Of a DNA stretch of 64,000 bases, positions 2,275-10,021 are shown in pieces; position 1 is the first letter of the stretch; each line of letters starts with the position of its first letter. The position numbers and the translations under genes were made by a program. Location: positions 682,001-746,000 of the forward strand of contig NC_019964.1 in assembly GCF_000328525.1 (NCBI RefSeq), read 5' to 3'. This DNA comes from Halovivax ruber XH-70. Its GTDB lineage: Archaea > Halobacteriota > Halobacteria > Halobacteriales > Natrialbaceae. The notes beneath the pieces were generated by a model. It ran no database searches. It was not told the DNA's origin and saw only the letters and a list, made by a program, of their open reading frames with translations.

Positions 2275-2874
2275 ATGCTGGAACGGGCGCTGCACTGGTT
2301 CGGCTACGGGTTCGCCCACCTCCTGTTCGTTCGAGCGCACTCGCCCGAAGCGGTCGTCCGCCGATTGCGCCTGGCCTACCGACTGGTTGGTGTACGGATC
2401 GTCGAGACGCCGCGGGTTGACGGCACCGAGCGGACGATCTTCCGCTGTCCGTACCGAAACCTGGCCGCGGGCCGGTGGGGGCCGACGTGGCTCTGTCACG
2501 AAAAACTCGATCGCGTCGACGACGGCTACGTCACGTTCCTCCGGCGACACCGCGATATCGAGTACGATCGCCCGCGGAGCTGTACGAATCTGGCGTACTG
2601 CGAGGCGTCCGCACACTGTTACTCGGACGTCTCCGCCGCGGGGAGTGCCGACACATCCAGCGCGAGGAACACCGGCACCGACAACCCGAACGCGAGGAAC
2701 ACCGGCACCGACAACCCGAACGCGAGGAACACCGGGACTGACACCCCGATCGCGGGGGACACCGGGACTGACACCCCGAACGCAGGGGACGTCATCACTG
2801 GCGGTTCCACCCCGGAGCAGACCGGCTCGACCGTCGACACCACCGAGGCGGTGACCGGAGGGCGAGACGAGTGA
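2275..2874 (+). CDS. Cys-rich hypothetical protein with decapeptide repeats
   Basis: I do not recognise a named family. Residues 1-120 are a compact region with an amphipathic N-terminus (MLERALHWFGYGFAHLLF) and five Cys in the pattern FRCPYRN, LCHEKLD, SCTNLAYC and HCYS, which could bind a metal or Fe-S centre. Residues 129-172 are about four copies of a decapeptide of the form ARNTGTDNPN, and the tail is Thr/Gly/Glu-rich and probably unstructured. The stop overlaps the start of the methyltransferase at 2871 (GTGA), so the two are translated together and probably act together. Confidence 0.75.
   Translation: MLERALHWFGYGFAHLLFVRAHSPEAVVRRLRLAYRLVGVRIVETPRVDGTERTIFRCPYRNLAAGRWGPTWLCHEKLDRVDDGYVTFLRRHRDIEYDRPRSCTNLAYCEASAHCYSDVSAAGSADTSSARNTGTDNPNARNTGTDNPNARNTGTDTPIAGDTGTDTPNAGDVITGGSTPEQTGSTVDTTEAVTGGRDE
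2661..2790 (+). repeat. 30-bp minisatellite inside a coding sequence
   Basis: Four tandem 30-bp units begin at 2661, 2691, 2721 and 2751, with a partial fifth to 2790. Units 1 and 2 are identical; units 3 and 4 differ from them at several bases. The unit length keeps frame and gives a decapeptide repeat. There are no spacers, so this is not a CRISPR array. Copy number could vary between strains by slippage. Confidence 0.95.
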
Positions 2875-3800
2875 CGGGCCGCCCGTTCGTCCCCGACGGT
2901 GCGTCGCGAGGGAGCGATCATCGCGATCGGGCAGACCGGCTGTCGGCACAGTTCGGAAACAGCGAGCAGCGCAACGATGTCTGGCGAGCGCTCGACCTCG
3001 TGTTGCCCACTGACGCGTACCTCAACATGGGCTATTCCCGGGCGTGGCAGACGCACCTGATCGGCGCACCGCAGCGACGCCTCGTCGAGCGAGCCCTCTC
3101 GGAACTGTCCTCGCTCGATCCGCACTGGCACGAGCGGCGCGTCCTCGATCTCGGATGCGGCCGCGGCGGCGCCACGCGGGACGTCGCAGCGCGCTACGCC
3201 GCCGACATCGTCGGCGTCGACCTCGTTCCCGACAACGTGGCCATCGCGCGGCGACACTCGACGTCCGACGACGCCGAACCGACGGCCGTCCCGTCGTTCG
3301 TCGCGGGCGACGCGACCCACCTGCCGTTCGATCGCGATGCGTTCGGCGCCTGCCTGTCGCTCGACGCCATCGTCTACGAACCCGAAAAGGAGCGCCTGTT
3401 CGGCGAACTCGCCCGTGTGATCGCGCCGCGCGGTGTCTGTGTCGTCTCCGACCTCCTCGCCGTCCCCGGCGTCGTCGACGAACGGGCACTCGCGCGCTTC
3501 CAGGACGCCTGGGACATGCCACCGCTGTGGACGCGCCACGCCTACCGGGAAGCGATCGAGTCGGCCGATCTCTCCGTGCCACTCATCACTGACATCTCCG
3601 CCTACAGCGTTCGTCGTTTTCGGGCGTGGACGCGACGGTTTCTCGTAGTCGCCGACGGGCCGCTCGGTCGACTCCTGAAACGCACGCTCGTTCACCTGGG
3701 TACCGACGCCGAGACGGTGGTCGAGCAGGTCCGCGCGGCCCACGACGCGCTCCCCGCGCTCCGACACGTACTCGTGCCGATATACGGGTCGGAGAAGTGA
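2871..3800 (+). CDS. Class I SAM-dependent methyltransferase
   Basis: The 309-aa protein has a Rossmann methyltransferase core with motif I VLDLGCGRGG near residues 90-100, an acidic residue after the second strand (VGVDLVPDN), and the post-II segment GDATHLPFD typical of small-molecule methyltransferases of the UbiE/Coq5/sterol type. The region before the core (LVLPTDAYLNMGYS) and the final segment (long basic helix RRFRAWTRRF) are like those of lipid or quinone methyltransferases, but the substrate is unknown. It starts at a GTG overlapping the stop of the Cys-rich gene, indicating translational coupling. Confidence 0.88.
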   Translation: MTGRPFVPDGASRGSDHRDRADRLSAQFGNSEQRNDVWRALDLVLPTDAYLNMGYSRAWQTHLIGAPQRRLVERALSELSSLDPHWHERRVLDLGCGRGGATRDVAARYAADIVGVDLVPDNVAIARRHSTSDDAEPTAVPSFVAGDATHLPFDRDAFGACLSLDAIVYEPEKERLFGELARVIAPRGVCVVSDLLAVPGVVDERALARFQDAWDMPPLWTRHAYREAIESADLSVPLITDISAYSVRRFRAWTRRFLVVADGPLGRLLKRTLVHLGTDAETVVEQVRAAHDALPALRHVLVPIYGSEK

Positions 3801-3890: not shown

Positions 3891-5237
3891 TTACAGGCGT
3901 TCGAGAAACGTATCGAACGCGCCGCTCTCGGGGTGGACGTGGGCGTAGGTGCCGAGTGTCTGATGCTCGGTCAATCCGTCGTGGGTCCCGTCGATCCCCG
4001 TTCCCCGGACGGTCTCGAACGCGAACCGAGCGTCATCGTCGACGGTCGCCTCCGAGTAGTGGAACTCGTGGCCGCGAAGTCGTGCCCCGTTTCGTGCCGT
4101 CAGCGTCTCGTCGGTGGCGACGAGTTCGACGTGATCGAGCGCCTGGTACCGCTCCTGCATGGTCACGTCGGCGGGGAGAAGGTCGGCCATCGTGTGCGTG
4201 TCGCCCTCGGTAGTGGTCAGTGATTGCGACAGCGCCATCAGTCCGCCACACTCGCCCAGGATCGGGAGGCTGTCACTCGCGAGTCGCCCGAGTTCGGTGA
4301 GCGTCCCCGTTGATTCGAGTGCCTCGGCGTGCAGTTCCGGATAGCCGCCGGGGAGATAGACGCCATCGCACTCGGGAACGGGGTCGCCGGCGACCGGTGA
4401 GAACGTCACCAGGGTGGCTCGCTCGCGAACGCGCTCGATCGTCGCGAGATAGCGAAAGCAAAAGGCCGCATCGTCGGCGACCGCGACCGTGGGACCGCCC
4501 GGGGACGGCCCTGCCTCACAGGCTGCCGACGGCGGTGCCGGATCTCGCGCGACGTCGACGAGTTGCTCGACGTCGATCGGCTCCGCGGCCTCGGCGAGCG
4601 CGTCTTCCGGGACCGGCGCCTCGTCGGCCAGCTCGAGCCCGAGGTGGCGATCGGGAATTTCCAGGGCGGGAGTCGGCGGAATCCGGCCGAAATACGTGAG
4701 ACTGTCCGGCAACGCCTCCCGGATACCCGTCTCGTGGCGACCGCCGTGGGCCCGCTGGGCGACGATCCCGGCGACATCGATCTCCCGCCCGATATCGTCG
4801 GCGTAGGTCTGGAACCCACGGGCCGTCGCCGCGACACTTTCCATGCCCGCACTCGCGTCGACGACGAGGACGACCGGCAGGCCGAGGGCCTCGGCCACCA
4901 TCGCTGTACTCGATCCGTCACCGTCGTACAGTCCCATGACGCCCTCGACGACGCAGACGTCACCCTCGCCGCGGTGGTAGTTGCGCCGGAGGCCGTCTTC
5001 CCCGCAGAGCCACAGATCGAGCGTCCGGGATGGACGACCCGCGACCGCCTCGTGGTGACTTGGATCGATGAAATCCGGGCCCGTCTTCGCAGGTTGAACG
5101 TCGTAGCTGGCGCCTTCGAGGGCCGTCGTGATTACGAGCGTCGCGACGGTCTTGCCGACTCCTGAGCTGACGCCGCCGAGGACGAACCCGGGCGGTCCGG
5201 CCTCCCGTTCGGATCCGGCTGCCGCTCGGTCGCTCAT
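3891..5237 (-). CDS. cbiA: Cobyrinate a,c-diamide synthase
   Basis: This 448-aa enzyme amidates the a and c side chains of cobyrinate using glutamine and ATP in cobamide synthesis. The N-terminal dethiobiotin-synthetase-like ATPase has the P-loop GVSSGVGKT and the segment KTGPDFIDPSHH, and VVEGVMGLYDG follows. The C-terminal half is a class I glutamine amidotransferase with the nucleophile in GECGGLMAL and a final His in YAHVHPE. Length fits the family. No other cobalamin gene lies beside it, although a short open frame upstream overlaps its start codon. Confidence 0.95.
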   Translation of the reverse strand: MSDRAAAGSEREAGPPGFVLGGVSSGVGKTVATLVITTALEGASYDVQPAKTGPDFIDPSHHEAVAGRPSRTLDLWLCGEDGLRRNYHRGEGDVCVVEGVMGLYDGDGSSTAMVAEALGLPVVLVVDASAGMESVAATARGFQTYADDIGREIDVAGIVAQRAHGGRHETGIREALPDSLTYFGRIPPTPALEIPDRHLGLELADEAPVPEDALAEAAEPIDVEQLVDVARDPAPPSAACEAGPSPGGPTVAVADDAAFCFRYLATIERVRERATLVTFSPVAGDPVPECDGVYLPGGYPELHAEALESTGTLTELGRLASDSLPILGECGGLMALSQSLTTTEGDTHTMADLLPADVTMQERYQALDHVELVATDETLTARNGARLRGHEFHYSEATVDDDARFAFETVRGTGIDGTHDGLTEHQTLGTYAHVHPESGAFDTFLERL

Positions 5238-5606
5238 CCGGTCGTCACCTCCCGCCAGCCGGGTTGTTCCAACAGATCAGCGACCATCGATGTCCCCGTT
5301 GGCCCCACCGTTACCGGCCGCGGAATGCCATTGGACCGATCGAGGACTCGACGCAACGGTGAGAGACTCCCGCGTCGTGGCGCTCGAACTCGCAGCTGCA
5401 GTCTCGGTACTATCGCCGCTTCCCGCCCGATTCTCGTCGTGGTGACTCCCCCGCTCGCCGACATCGGTGACGAAAGTGTGTTTGTGCAGCCACAAATACG
5501 ATTGCATCTCGGTAGAGATCGTCTTTGGACGTCGTTTTCGATGTACAACGAAATGGTGACCGGAGCCGATACTGGTTTATTCGTCGACACCGAACGGTTC
5601 GATAAA
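5238..5606. other. Intergenic region before the CHAT-like pair; possible 3' gene remnant
   Basis: On the minus strand a frame that ends at 5234 and overlaps the cbiA start reads NGIPRPVTVGPTGTSMVADLL near its end. This Gly/Pro/Val-rich tail could be the last ~30 codons of a lost gene that once preceded cbiA, but upstream of it the translation turns Arg/Ser-rich and non-coding in look. The rest holds only the TATA-like box of the next gene. Confidence 0.3.
5576..5581 (+). promoter_or_regulatory. TATA-like box of the first CHAT-like gene
   Basis: TTTATT centred about 28 nt before the ATG at 5607. This spacing predicts a leaderless or nearly leaderless mRNA, and it supports 5607 rather than any of the earlier in-frame starts, whose peptides match nothing in the paralogue. 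Confidence 0.5.
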
Positions 5607-7700
5607 ATGGGCTCCGGGAGTCATCGATCGCCGGTGTCCTTCGACCGGGACGGGGCGATCGTTCGCGTGGGGGACGATATCGAACGAGCGGAAGTGCGTA
5701 TCGAGGTCGACGGAGCGTCGGGACTCGAGCCGGCGCTCCCCGACGTATTCTTGTTTCCCGTCGACGAGGCAGTTTCGGTCACGGTCACCCAGCTGCGCTT
5801 CGCCGAGACGTTCGGCCAGACGCTCTGGGATGCGAACGGAAATCAGGTCGGAACGATCGCGGACGGGATCAGCGAGATGGCGCGGGGGACGTACTACGCT
5901 TCGCTCACCGGCGCAGTGAAGCTTCACCTCCGGATCGAGGACGCCACCTTCTGGGCCGAGGAGCATCTGGACGACGCGGGGCGATCGATCGTCGAGATGC
6001 GCTTCGACGAGCCGACGTCGGTGGCCATCGGCGCCCGCTCCCTTCGCTCGCATCCGACGGCGACGATCACGGTTCCCGACGATCCCGGAGCGCTCCTCGA
6101 CGCGCTCCCGTACCTGGCCGCCTCGGTCAAGGAACACACCTGTGAACGGTCCTGGCCGACGATCCGACAGCACCCACCAGCACTCGAGCGGGGCGAGCAG
6201 TTGGACGTGCCAGCCGAACTCCGAGCGCCGGAGACGGGTGTCGAAATCCGAGTACCGTCGACGTACGAGCACTGCTACCGGGTGGCGCCGCTCGCGTTCT
6301 ACCTCGGGGCAGACGTAAGCGCCGGCGAGTCACCGGCACTGATCCTCGAGAACGGCCACGTCGAACCGCTCGAGACGCGCCGGGCGACCCTGGCCGAACG
6401 CGTCGGAGACCTCCTCGACCGGTGTCTGTTGCTCGACTCGCTGGTGAGAGAAGCGGGTTACCAGCCGATGGGGAACGCCGAGTACGAGCGGCTGGCCCCG
6501 CAACTGCCGTTCTACCCGCCGAATCTCTACGACCTGCCCCCGGCCGACCAGTTGCTCGAGTACCTGGAGGTGCCACGTGAGGTACTCGAGCCCTTTACCC
6601 CGTGCTGGCCGAAGCGCGCCGTGTTGCGCCCGGCTCCCGAAGACGTCTCTGTGCTCCCCTCGTTACTCCACGAACTCGCGCGGATCGACGTCGCCCGCTC
6701 ACCCGACGCGATCCCACCGACGGTCCCGTCCGACTCGACGGCTGGCGAGGGCCGCGATCGAGGGGGTGAAAAGCGTCGGTCGGATGCGCTACTGACCGCC
6801 CACACGTTCCCAGCGCAGGTACCGGGAACTTGCCGGTTGCACCCGGAGGCGATGGAACGGGCACGGACCGTCGAACGTCCCACGCCGGACGGAGCATCGC
6901 TGACGCTCGCGACGGCCGACTCGGCGCGGGCCCGGTCGTTCCGACAATTCGCCGACCAGGCTCGTAACGAGACAGCGATCACGGTCCTCGAACAGCCCAC
7001 GGCGGCCGCCCTCCGCGACGCGGTCGAGGCGGATCGAACCGCCCTGTACTGTGAGATCCCGACTACCGAAGCGGGAATTCGCTGTGCCGACCGGACGCTC
7101 TCGTTCGACGAGCTGGGGCCCGTCGGCTCGCCGGTCGTCTGGCTCTCAGACGTCGCGCCCGGCGTGACGGGCGAACCGCTCGTTTCTGCTGGGGCGATCG
7201 CCATCGTGCTCACGGACGACGAACCGGACCTGGGGGCGGTCTGGGGTGCGCTCGACCAGCTGTGCGCCGGGTTCTCGGTCGCCGACGCGGTGTACACGGC
7301 CGACGTCGATCACGGAGTCGACGTCAGGTTCGTCGGTGACGCGTCCGTGACGGTCGTCCGCCGCGTGAGCAAAACGCCGACGGTCGTCGACGTCCGCCCG
7401 CTCGACGAGGACCGCTACGCCTTCACGATCAGAAGTTACCCCACTGACGTCGTCCGGCAGGGGACGGCCGTCAAACCCGTCAGCGCGGAAGACGTCGTGG
7501 GTCGCGTCCTGGAGGAGTGCAATCACGACGGCTACTGGCTGGTCGGCGCGGACGCGAGGCAAGCCCTGCCCATCACGTCGGCGGAGGTCGCCTCGCTCGT
7601 CGAGAACGACGGGTTCGCCGTCCGTCTCGACGGTCGTCTTCTGACCACCGCCGACGCCGACGACTGCCCGCTCCAGGAAGTCGTACAGGGTGGTCCCTGA
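5607..7700 (+). CDS. CHAT-like protein lacking catalytic His and Cys (paralogue 1)
   Basis: 697 aa. The N-terminal 350 residues follow the layout I know from haloarchaeal CHAT-domain proteins: an acidic beta-rich start (DLFLFP-type PVDEAVSV segment), YPTLR/WPTIRQHPP, TGVEIRVPSTYEH, VAPLAFYLGA, and YPPNLYDLP before a helical linker. The C-terminal part matches the caspase-like CHAT domain around GIRCADR, an SAGAIAIVLTDD helix-strand and a C-terminal GYWLVGADA block. Where active CHAT proteases have Gly-His, this protein has Ile-Pro, and where they have Asn-Ala-Cys it has LSD. It is thus predicted to be inactive as a protease. Start chosen by alignment with paralogue 2 and the TATA spacing. Function unknown. 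Confidence 0.72.
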   Translation: MGSGSHRSPVSFDRDGAIVRVGDDIERAEVRIEVDGASGLEPALPDVFLFPVDEAVSVTVTQLRFAETFGQTLWDANGNQVGTIADGISEMARGTYYASLTGAVKLHLRIEDATFWAEEHLDDAGRSIVEMRFDEPTSVAIGARSLRSHPTATITVPDDPGALLDALPYLAASVKEHTCERSWPTIRQHPPALERGEQLDVPAELRAPETGVEIRVPSTYEHCYRVAPLAFYLGADVSAGESPALILENGHVEPLETRRATLAERVGDLLDRCLLLDSLVREAGYQPMGNAEYERLAPQLPFYPPNLYDLPPADQLLEYLEVPREVLEPFTPCWPKRAVLRPAPEDVSVLPSLLHELARIDVARSPDAIPPTVPSDSTAGEGRDRGGEKRRSDALLTAHTFPAQVPGTCRLHPEAMERARTVERPTPDGASLTLATADSARARSFRQFADQARNETAITVLEQPTAAALRDAVEADRTALYCEIPTTEAGIRCADRTLSFDELGPVGSPVVWLSDVAPGVTGEPLVSAGAIAIVLTDDEPDLGAVWGALDQLCAGFSVADAVYTADVDHGVDVRFVGDASVTVVRRVSKTPTVVDVRPLDEDRYAFTIRSYPTDVVRQGTAVKPVSAEDVVGRVLEECNHDGYWLVGADARQALPITSAEVASLVENDGFAVRLDGRLLTTADADDCPLQEVVQGGP

Positions 7701-7884
7701 CAGCTCCACGGCGAGCACGTGGACGGTCGTCGCTACTGCTGTCACCGCGAGCGATCACACCAGTCGGTCCACGTGCAACACGCACGACCCGAGCGTCTTC
7801 GGATCGTCGTGGCTACCACGCCAGCAGCTCGACGACCCAACTGTGACAGAACGGCACGATCGTCGCACAGACCGGAGACGGCAA

Positions 7885-7892
7885 AAATATAT
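7885..7892 (+). promoter_or_regulatory. TATA box of the second CHAT-like gene
   Basis: AAATATAT in a GC-rich setting, about 30 nt before the ATG at 7922. It shows that paralogue 2 has its own promoter and is not only read through from paralogue 1, from which it is separated by 221 bp. Confidence 0.65.
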
Positions 7893-7921
7893 CCTGCATA
7901 GACGAACAGCCAGAAGACGTG

Positions 7922-10021
7922 ATGGATCGCAGTCCCAGCTCACCTGTTACCATCGAACGGGACGGCTCGACTGTTCGCGTGGGGGACGACATCGAACGTG
8001 CCGAAGTGCGGATCGAGGTCGACGGGGAGCCGGGCCTCGAGCCAGCGATGCCCGACCTGTTCTTGTTCCCCATCGACGATGCAGTCTCCGTCACCGTCTC
8101 CCGGATGCGGTTGCAGGGAACGGTCGGCCGAACGCTCTGGGACGGAAACGGGACACCGGTGGCCGAACTCTCCGACGGCCGAAACGAGGTTCCGAACGGG
8201 ACGTACTACGCCTCGATCACCGGAACGGTGAAGATTCACCTCCGGATCGAGAACGCGGCGGTCAGCGCCGAACAGCACATCGACGACGATCAGGCGATCG
8301 TCGACCTGCGCTTCGACGAGCCGACGTCGGTGGCCATCGGCGCCCGCTCGCTCCGCTCACACCCGTCTGCGACCATCACCGTCCCCGACGATCCCGGAAC
8401 CCTCCTCGAGGCCCTCCCCTACCTGGCGTCCTCGATCAAGGAGTTCACCTGCGAGCGCTCCTGGCCCACGCTCAGACAGCACCCGCCAGCGATCGAGCGT
8501 GGGAACGAACTGCACGTGCCGCCGGAGCTCCGAATCCCGGAGACCGGCGTGGAGATCCGCATTCCCCCGACGTACGAACACTGCTATCGGGTGGCGCCGC
8601 TCGCGTTCTACCTCGGCGCCGAGCTTACCCCAGCGGACGCCCCCGAACTCGTCCTCGAGAACGGCCACGTCGAACCGCTCGTCACCGAGCGCGCCAGCCT
8701 CGACGAGCGCGTTGCCGACATCCTCTCCCGGTGTCTGCTGCTCGACTCGCTCGTGAGAGCGGACGGTTACCAGTCGCTGAAGAAGGCCGAGTACGACCAG
8801 CTGGCACCGCAACTGCCGTTCTACCCGCCGAACCTCTACGACCTGCCCCTCGCCGATCAGTTGCTCGAGTACCTCGACGTGCCGCGCGACGTGCTCTCAC
8901 CGTTTCTGGCGCGCTGGCCGAAGCGCGCCGTGTTGCGCCCGGAGCCCGAAGACGTCTCTGTGCTCCCCTCGTTGCTTCACGAACTCGCGCGGATCGATGT
9001 CGCCCGATCCGTCGAGCACGTTCCGCCGACAGTTCCGGCCGGCGAGAGCACAGCCGCCGACGGCGACCCGGCCAGCGGCGTGAGACGACCGGGCGCACTG
9101 CTGAGCGCTCACACGTTCCCCGACGACACGCCGGGAACCTGCCGCCTGCGCCCGGACGCAATGGAGCACGGACAGTTCCTCGAACGCACCACGACCGACT
9201 CGGCCCACCTCACGCTCGTAACGGCCGACCCGGACCGGGCGCGAGCGTTCAGTCGGTTCGCCGAGCGTACCGACGACGAGGCAGTGGTCTCGGTCCTCGA
9301 ACAGCCCACGGCGGCCGCCCTCCACGACGCGCTCGAAGCCGATCGAACCGCCTGCTACTGCGAGTTGCCGGCGACAGAGGACGGCATCCGTTGTGCCGAC
9401 CGTCCCCTACTGTTCGATGCGATCGACGACGTATCGACGCCGGTCGTCTGGCTCGCCGAAACCCCACCCGAGCCGATCGGCGACGCGCTCGTCGCCGCCG
9501 GATCGGTTGCGGTCGTACTCACCGACGGGGCGCCGTCTCCAGCCGCGATTCGGGCCACCCTCACCCAGTTGCTCGATGGCTACTCGGTCGCGGACGCAGC
9601 GTACACGGCCAGTCTCGACCGTGAAGTCGATCTCCGGTTCGTCGGTGACGCGTCCGTGACGGTCGTCCGCCAAGTGAGCAATTCGCCGACGATCGTCGAT
9701 CTCACCGCGACCGGAACCGACCGGTATGCCGCCACAATCCGCTATTACCCCACAGACGTTATACGACAGGGATCAGTCGCGAAGAGAATCGGCGGAGCTG
9801 ACGCCCTTAGCCGACCCCTGGAGGAGTCCGCCCGTGATGGGTACTGGCTGGTCGGCGCCGATGCGGAGCAAGGACTTTCGGTCACGCCGGCGGAAGTCTC
9901 GGCGTTCGTCGACGACGTCGGAGTCACCGTCCGGCTCGACAACCGCTTGCTGACCACGACGGACGACGAAGCACTCCAGACGCCGACGCTCACTCGAGGC
10001 GCGAACGAGGACAGCGGCTGA
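7922..10021 (+). CDS. CHAT-like protein lacking catalytic His and Cys (paralogue 2)
   Basis: 699 aa, collinear with its upstream neighbour over its whole length and identical in many blocks (YPPNLYDLP, DQLLEYL, ARSLRSHP, CERSWPT, RFVGDASVTVVR). The predicted active-site positions of the CHAT domain read CELP instead of a Gly-His and WLAETP instead of Asn-Ala-Cys, so both catalytic residues are missing here too. It is likely a scaffold, decoy or regulatory partner, perhaps pairing with paralogue 1; that is inference. A GTG at 7919 directly precedes the ATG. It probably arose by local tandem duplication. Confidence 0.72.
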   Translation: MDRSPSSPVTIERDGSTVRVGDDIERAEVRIEVDGEPGLEPAMPDLFLFPIDDAVSVTVSRMRLQGTVGRTLWDGNGTPVAELSDGRNEVPNGTYYASITGTVKIHLRIENAAVSAEQHIDDDQAIVDLRFDEPTSVAIGARSLRSHPSATITVPDDPGTLLEALPYLASSIKEFTCERSWPTLRQHPPAIERGNELHVPPELRIPETGVEIRIPPTYEHCYRVAPLAFYLGAELTPADAPELVLENGHVEPLVTERASLDERVADILSRCLLLDSLVRADGYQSLKKAEYDQLAPQLPFYPPNLYDLPLADQLLEYLDVPRDVLSPFLARWPKRAVLRPEPEDVSVLPSLLHELARIDVARSVEHVPPTVPAGESTAADGDPASGVRRPGALLSAHTFPDDTPGTCRLRPDAMEHGQFLERTTTDSAHLTLVTADPDRARAFSRFAERTDDEAVVSVLEQPTAAALHDALEADRTACYCELPATEDGIRCADRPLLFDAIDDVSTPVVWLAETPPEPIGDALVAAGSVAVVLTDGAPSPAAIRATLTQLLDGYSVADAAYTASLDREVDLRFVGDASVTVVRQVSNSPTIVDLTATGTDRYAATIRYYPTDVIRQGSVAKRIGGADALSRPLEESARDGYWLVGADAEQGLSVTPAEVSAFVDDVGVTVRLDNRLLTTTDDEALQTPTLTRGANEDSG

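Follow-up and report, generated by a model that had tools for sequence, protein, structure and literature searches.

A tandem pair of dyad-less CHAT homologues in Halovivax, putative pseudoproteases with a conserved N-terminal module

Background

Caspase homologues without the His-Cys dyad have been described in bacteria as pseudo-orthocaspases. They carry a p20 domain, have mostly Tyr-Ser at the dyad, come mainly from Alphaproteobacteria and Cyanobacteria, and none were found in Archaea (Klemencic et al. 2019, PMC6426788). Among proteins with a CHAT domain, the TPR-CHAT protein Csx29 of Craspase combines TPR repeats, an RNA-guided partner and an active dyad (PMC10028731, PMC9729208). In the haloarchaea, a caspase-like activity is known from Haloferax volcanii, for which the responsible protein or gene had not been identified as of 2012 (PMC3615174). 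No papers on CHAT proteins or pseudoproteases of haloarchaea, or on the family DUF7504, turned up in our searches of an open-access subset of the literature. Here we describe two adjacent genes, A and B, that code for pseudo-CHAT proteins in Halovivax ruber XH-70. They lie in a stretch of 64,000 nucleotides (bases 682001-746000 of the 3.22 Mb genome, contig NC_019964.1), called the window below, and coordinates without a prefix are positions in it.

A and B resemble the haloarchaeal CHAT peptidases (PF12770) over their whole length, but they have neither the His-Cys dyad and its surroundings, nor a match to PF12770, nor the DUF7504 neighbour. Like the pseudo-orthocaspases they are caspase homologues without the dyad, and they differ from them by the CHAT domain, the varied replacement residues and the archaeal hosts. 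As in Csx29, the CHAT domain is part of a larger protein (in Csx29 together with a regulatory part), but in A and B no TPR match and no link to CRISPR (clustered regularly interspaced short palindromic repeats) systems was seen. A and B cannot account for the Haloferax activity; the dyad-bearing members of their family are candidates only for its source.

Results and discussion

The pair belongs to a widespread haloarchaeal CHAT family

The original prediction described two tandem proteins of about 700 amino acids (aa), and the open reading frames were found as claimed. They are on the same strand, separated by 218-221 bp, and have 64-66% identity to each other. Their features are the following:

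5607-7700, plus strand: gene A, pseudo-CHAT protein of 697 aa (open reading frame; family membership by blastp, hidden Markov model and hhalign)
5607-6716, plus strand: N-terminal module of A, residues 1-370, without Pfam match
6879-7406, plus strand: degenerate CHAT core of A, residues ~425-600 (core-only hhalign)
7059-7061, plus strand: Pro485 of A, at the catalytic His position (alignment, codon checked)
7152-7154, plus strand: Val516 of A, at the catalytic Cys position (alignment, codon checked)
7922-10021, plus strand: gene B, pseudo-CHAT protein of 699 aa (open reading frame; family member), or 700 aa from an alternative GTG start at 7919
7922-9025, plus strand: N-terminal module of B, residues 1-368 (identity comparison)
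9188-9715, plus strand: degenerate CHAT core of B, residues ~423-598 (profile alignments)
9368-9370, plus strand: Pro483 of B, at the catalytic His position (alignment, codon checked)
9461-9463, plus strand: Thr514 of B, at the catalytic Cys position (alignment, codon checked)

Neither protein gave a Pfam match of any kind, including direct comparison with PF12770 and p20/C14, and NCBIfam yielded nothing credible. The closest named record comes from Halovivax asiaticus, with 89% identity to B. At least one match to the A/B family was found in 267 of the 293 Halobacteriales genomes sampled, and in the Halovivax genome there are five members of full length (A, B, C1:1016541, C1:1819612 and C1:786027). 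Members with the motifs HYIGH and LNAC are CHAT peptidases, some of them above the PF12770 cut-off; for one dyad-bearing member the match (E 7.5e-5) covers residues 444-592. A separate search with PF12770 gave matches above the curated cut-off in 21 of 195 Halobacteriales genomes, and all 30 loci fetched from it carry a member of the A/B family. Because these intact members match PF12770, we call A and B CHAT relatives, even though Pfam misses the domain in A and B directly. The Pfam CHAT model also found nothing in the Halovivax genome despite its two dyad-bearing paralogues, so Pfam alone is too insensitive here. The annotations "CHAT domain-containing protein" or "caspase family protein" appear on two plasmid-borne members, and nearly all the others are "hypothetical protein".

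The alignment contains 142 members, 100 with both the catalytic His and Cys (intact members) and 42 without at least one of them (dead members). In profile-profile comparison the dead and intact groups aligned over their full length (probability 100, E 4e-117), in agreement with the predicted lengthwise alignment of A and B to haloarchaeal CHAT proteins. When the C-terminal core of ~165 residues was used alone, with both groups realigned separately, the probability was 99.2 (E 2.5e-19), against 0.2 for a reversed dead core and 0.9 for the intact N-terminal profile compared with the dead core. Judged from these alignments, A and B can be counted, as homologues, among the members of the main haloarchaeal CHAT family, and their C-terminal remnant may retain a caspase fold.

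Ahead of the CHAT core the family has an N-terminal module of ~350 aa with the motifs GARSxHxRP, ERSxPTLRGHPP and YLGA, present also in A and B and known only from this family. Sequence-profile searches of the PDB with the full-length protein gave no convincing match. No relatives of A and B were found in viral contigs, and PADLOC gave no match for the intact members.

A dismantled active site

The column of the catalytic His is occupied by Pro in both A (YCEIP) and B (YCELP), and here alignment and codons agree with what had been predicted. The assignment of the catalytic Cys has to be corrected. It had been read as replaced by Asp or Glu, but WLSDV in A and WLAET in B align with FLNAC in such a way that the Asp and Glu fall one column off, on the Ala of NAC, and the true Cys column contains Val in A and Thr in B.

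The damage extends beyond the dyad. Eight residues with complete or near-complete conservation in the intact members (W427, N464, M468, Y479, H513, G516, N546 and S550) have without exception been replaced in A and B, and in clade I, the group of dead members to which both belong (see below), these eight and the dyad residues H517 and C548 are kept in only 0-23% of the sequences. The glycines G561, G615 and G658 persist in 90-100% of the same clade. A conserved His-Cys pair elsewhere in the domain, looked for as the original prediction had proposed, was not found in the CHAT core of clade I, where no His column is conserved even at 30%. One member of the clade (L014) keeps the Cys and has lost the His. 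Two other Cys columns, three residues before and eleven after the catalytic His (H-3 and H+11), are each filled in 64% of clade I and both are filled in 14 of its 39 members, including A and B. The Cys at H+11 is invariant in the intact members and inherited from them. The Cys at H-3 is the one in YCEIP and YCELP (7050-7052 and 9359-9361). With such an active site, A and B are presumably not proteolytic.

The dyad was lost several times

Trees were built quickly, from the N-terminal module only, and contain some long branches. Clade I unites 39 dead sequences, drawn from four haloarchaeal families, with support of 99-100 in the Shimodaira-Hasegawa-like approximate likelihood ratio test (SH-aLRT). 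Since both A and B sit in this clade, they inherited one old loss of the dyad, and the argument that the same loss in two divergent paralogues suggests selection is not supported. A second clade contains 16 sequences, typically with Asp, Glu or Thr in place of the His and Pro in place of the Cys, and includes C1:786027 of the Halovivax genome. The third dead group is a tandem pair in one genome (G155). The three losses were separated on the N-terminal tree with SH-aLRT values of 96-100, and the approximately unbiased (AU) test rejected both the grouping of all dead members (p 0.008) and that of clades I and II (p 0.007), although these p-values are somewhat optimistic because the dead groups were defined after the first tree. 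On the sequence evidence, then, haloarchaea have lost the CHAT dyad at least three times independently, a better argument for selection than the A/B pair itself.

The Halovivax member of clade II (C1:786027-787586, L060:6701-8776) has Thr and Pro at the dyad and overlaps the 3' end of the same-strand gene for a PAS/GAF histidine kinase (L060:4833-6704). This clade is expanded in genomes G087 (with three copies in a row in L227) and G261.

Most of the constraint falls on the N-terminal module

In the intact members the mean pairwise identity was 45.5% in the N-terminal module and 51.8% in the CHAT core. In clade I the corresponding values were 47.5% and 25.7%, and in clade II 39.0% and 33.6% (40.4% and 63.4% in the nearest intact relatives of the latter). 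The ratio of nonsynonymous to synonymous substitution rates (dN/dS) against H. asiaticus was 0.14 (A) and 0.13 (B) for the N-terminal module and 0.40 (A) and 0.27 (B) for the CHAT core. A pair of intact orthologues gave 0.10 and 0.05 respectively, with a dS above 1 and therefore near saturation. The CHAT core of A and B is thus relaxed yet not free of constraint, and the N-terminal module is the part kept by selection. The purifying selection on this module is in line with the earlier proposal that these are dead CHAT proteases with a selected role.

Intact paralogues and gene neighbourhood

A search for active paralogues in the same genome had been suggested, and two dyad-bearing ones were found (C1:1016541 and C1:1819612). 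Among 29 genomes picked for carrying dead-type members, 28 also have a dyad-bearing copy, that of G281 with a split frame; the exception is G155. One intact Halovivax paralogue (L058:6512-8668) has only 81% protein identity to its H. asiaticus counterpart (L197), with dS above 1, in contrast with the genes flanking A and B, which are 91-94% identical in DNA to those of H. asiaticus. This unusual divergence may reflect replacement or fast evolution.

Intact and dead members also differ in their neighbours. A gene for DUF7504 (PF24336) adjoins 52 of 122 intact loci, 36 times directly upstream in the same orientation, whereas all 47 dead loci lack such a neighbour (Fisher p 1e-9, with related loci treated as independent). 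The Halovivax genome has six DUF7504 genes, none within the window. Loci with DUF7504 directly upstream of a dyad-bearing CHAT gene are many (L041, L044, L045, L049, L053, L079, L080 and others), and the two genes are a candidate two-gene haloarchaeal system, of which we found no description in the literature searched. In another subset of dyad-bearing CHAT genes the directly upstream gene codes for an AAA_16/Cdc6-like ATPase (L038:5243-6409, L040:7410-8561, L042:6758-7822).

On one side of the pair itself lies the following gene:

3891-5237, minus strand: cobyrinic acid a,c-diamide synthase (cbiA; CbiA/GATase_3; Pfam PF07685, PF01656), outside the pair

On the other flank, also on the minus strand, is what we take from its sequence to be an adenylosuccinate lyase gene. 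Further away, an open reading frame immediately upstream of a methyltransferase gene (2871-3800) has short tandem repeats coding for RNTGTDxPNA (2275-2874) near its 3' end.

A corrin-ring synthesis cluster separates the two orthologues of the pair in H. asiaticus (region L061:2597-18505). In the window (3891-10021 compared) no corrin-ring genes lie between A and B, and cbiA adjoins the pair. In H. asiaticus a Mg/Co-chelatase gene lies next to A, on its upstream side; the Halovivax genome studied here gave no match to it, so the corrin-ring cluster has likely been lost, leaving A and B adjacent. Cobalamin genes also occur near homologues in G087, G261 and G169 but were not seen at most of the other clade I loci examined. 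The chelatase was considered as a partner of A and B and set aside, being part of the Halovivax cobalamin cluster and not a general partner of clade I.

Possible roles of A and B

The conserved N-terminal module together with the relaxed CHAT core is most economically read as A and B still doing the job of this module without proteolysis. The intact paralogues with the same module are in the same cell, making competition for partners or co-assembly likely. We therefore favour, with slightly better than even confidence, that A and B are pseudoproteases whose selected function resides in the N-terminal module and which would act as non-proteolytic regulators or competitors of the intact paralogues. 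The ancestral protein combines an N-terminal module of ~350 aa with a CHAT peptidase, and DUF7504 is a frequent neighbour of its gene. In clade I the dyad has been lost together with a large part of the active site around it, DUF7504 is absent from the neighbourhood, and the CHAT core drifts under weak constraint, keeping some structural glycines, while the N-terminal module stays under strong selection. The module of A and B may bind the same ligand or partner as that of the intact paralogues, or co-assemble with them, and in this way A and B would regulate or compete with the intact proteases.

Several observations weigh against this proposal. The genes for A and B are not linked to those for the intact proteins on the chromosome. 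With intact copies being frequent in general, their co-occurrence with dead ones is weak evidence. The N-terminal module has neither a Pfam match nor a convincing PDB match. The AlphaFold models, made from alignments limited to three sequences, had a low predicted local distance difference test score (30.7 for full-length B and 36.6 for its CHAT core). The dN/dS values come from short pieces of sequence, and in the intact pair used for comparison dS is near saturation.

Constraint concentrated in the N-terminal module would also fit a role of this module that has nothing to do with the intact CHAT paralogues, perhaps a metabolic one, with the C-terminal part a decaying remnant. The cobalamin genes near the homologues in Halovivax, including the corrin-ring cluster of H. 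asiaticus, would fit such a role, but most of the remaining clade I loci looked at showed none, and two invariant C-terminal glycines and a CHAT-core dN/dS below 1 indicate that constraint remains there. We regard this explanation as tenable but on the unlikely side.

A decoy, in which the pseudo-CHAT domain sequesters substrates or inhibitors of an active CHAT protease, would agree with the coexistence of dead and dyad-bearing copies in nearly all the genomes compared and with the fold-type residues that are kept. It should, however, preserve its binding surface, and the CHAT core and the active-site surroundings are poorly conserved in the dead clades, which makes it improbable. Of the non-proteolytic roles named in the original prediction, the decoy thus fares badly with so weakly constrained a core, and A and B may instead be scaffolds or regulators that work by means of their N-terminal module. 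We give very little credit to a new activity of the C-terminal domain, for example via the H-3/H+11 Cys pair: frequent as these residues are in clade I, the pair is not universal, has no conserved His alongside and draws one of its members from the intact ancestors. That A and B are pseudogenes heading for loss, as the relaxed CHAT core might suggest, is dismissed on constraint and distribution, given the open frames in four haloarchaeal families and the strongly conserved N-terminal module with its low dN/dS.

The pseudo-copies, which arose at least three times from a CHAT protease with the N-terminal module retained, might add a level of control above the intact CHAT proteases and would then be the first archaeal pseudo-caspase regulatory system, a possibility that we put forward only tentatively.

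Significance for the haloarchaea

The family bears both on the reported absence of pseudo-orthocaspases from Archaea (PMC6426788) and on the caspase-like activity of Haloferax that lacks a gene (PMC3615174). Dyad-bearing CHAT proteins, mostly annotated as hypothetical, extend across most Halobacteriales, and three clades have independently become dyad-less. As catalysis was lost repeatedly and the N-terminal module was kept, it is this module, and not proteolysis, that seems to be under the most persistent selection in the family, and its primacy can be tested by haloarchaeal genetics.

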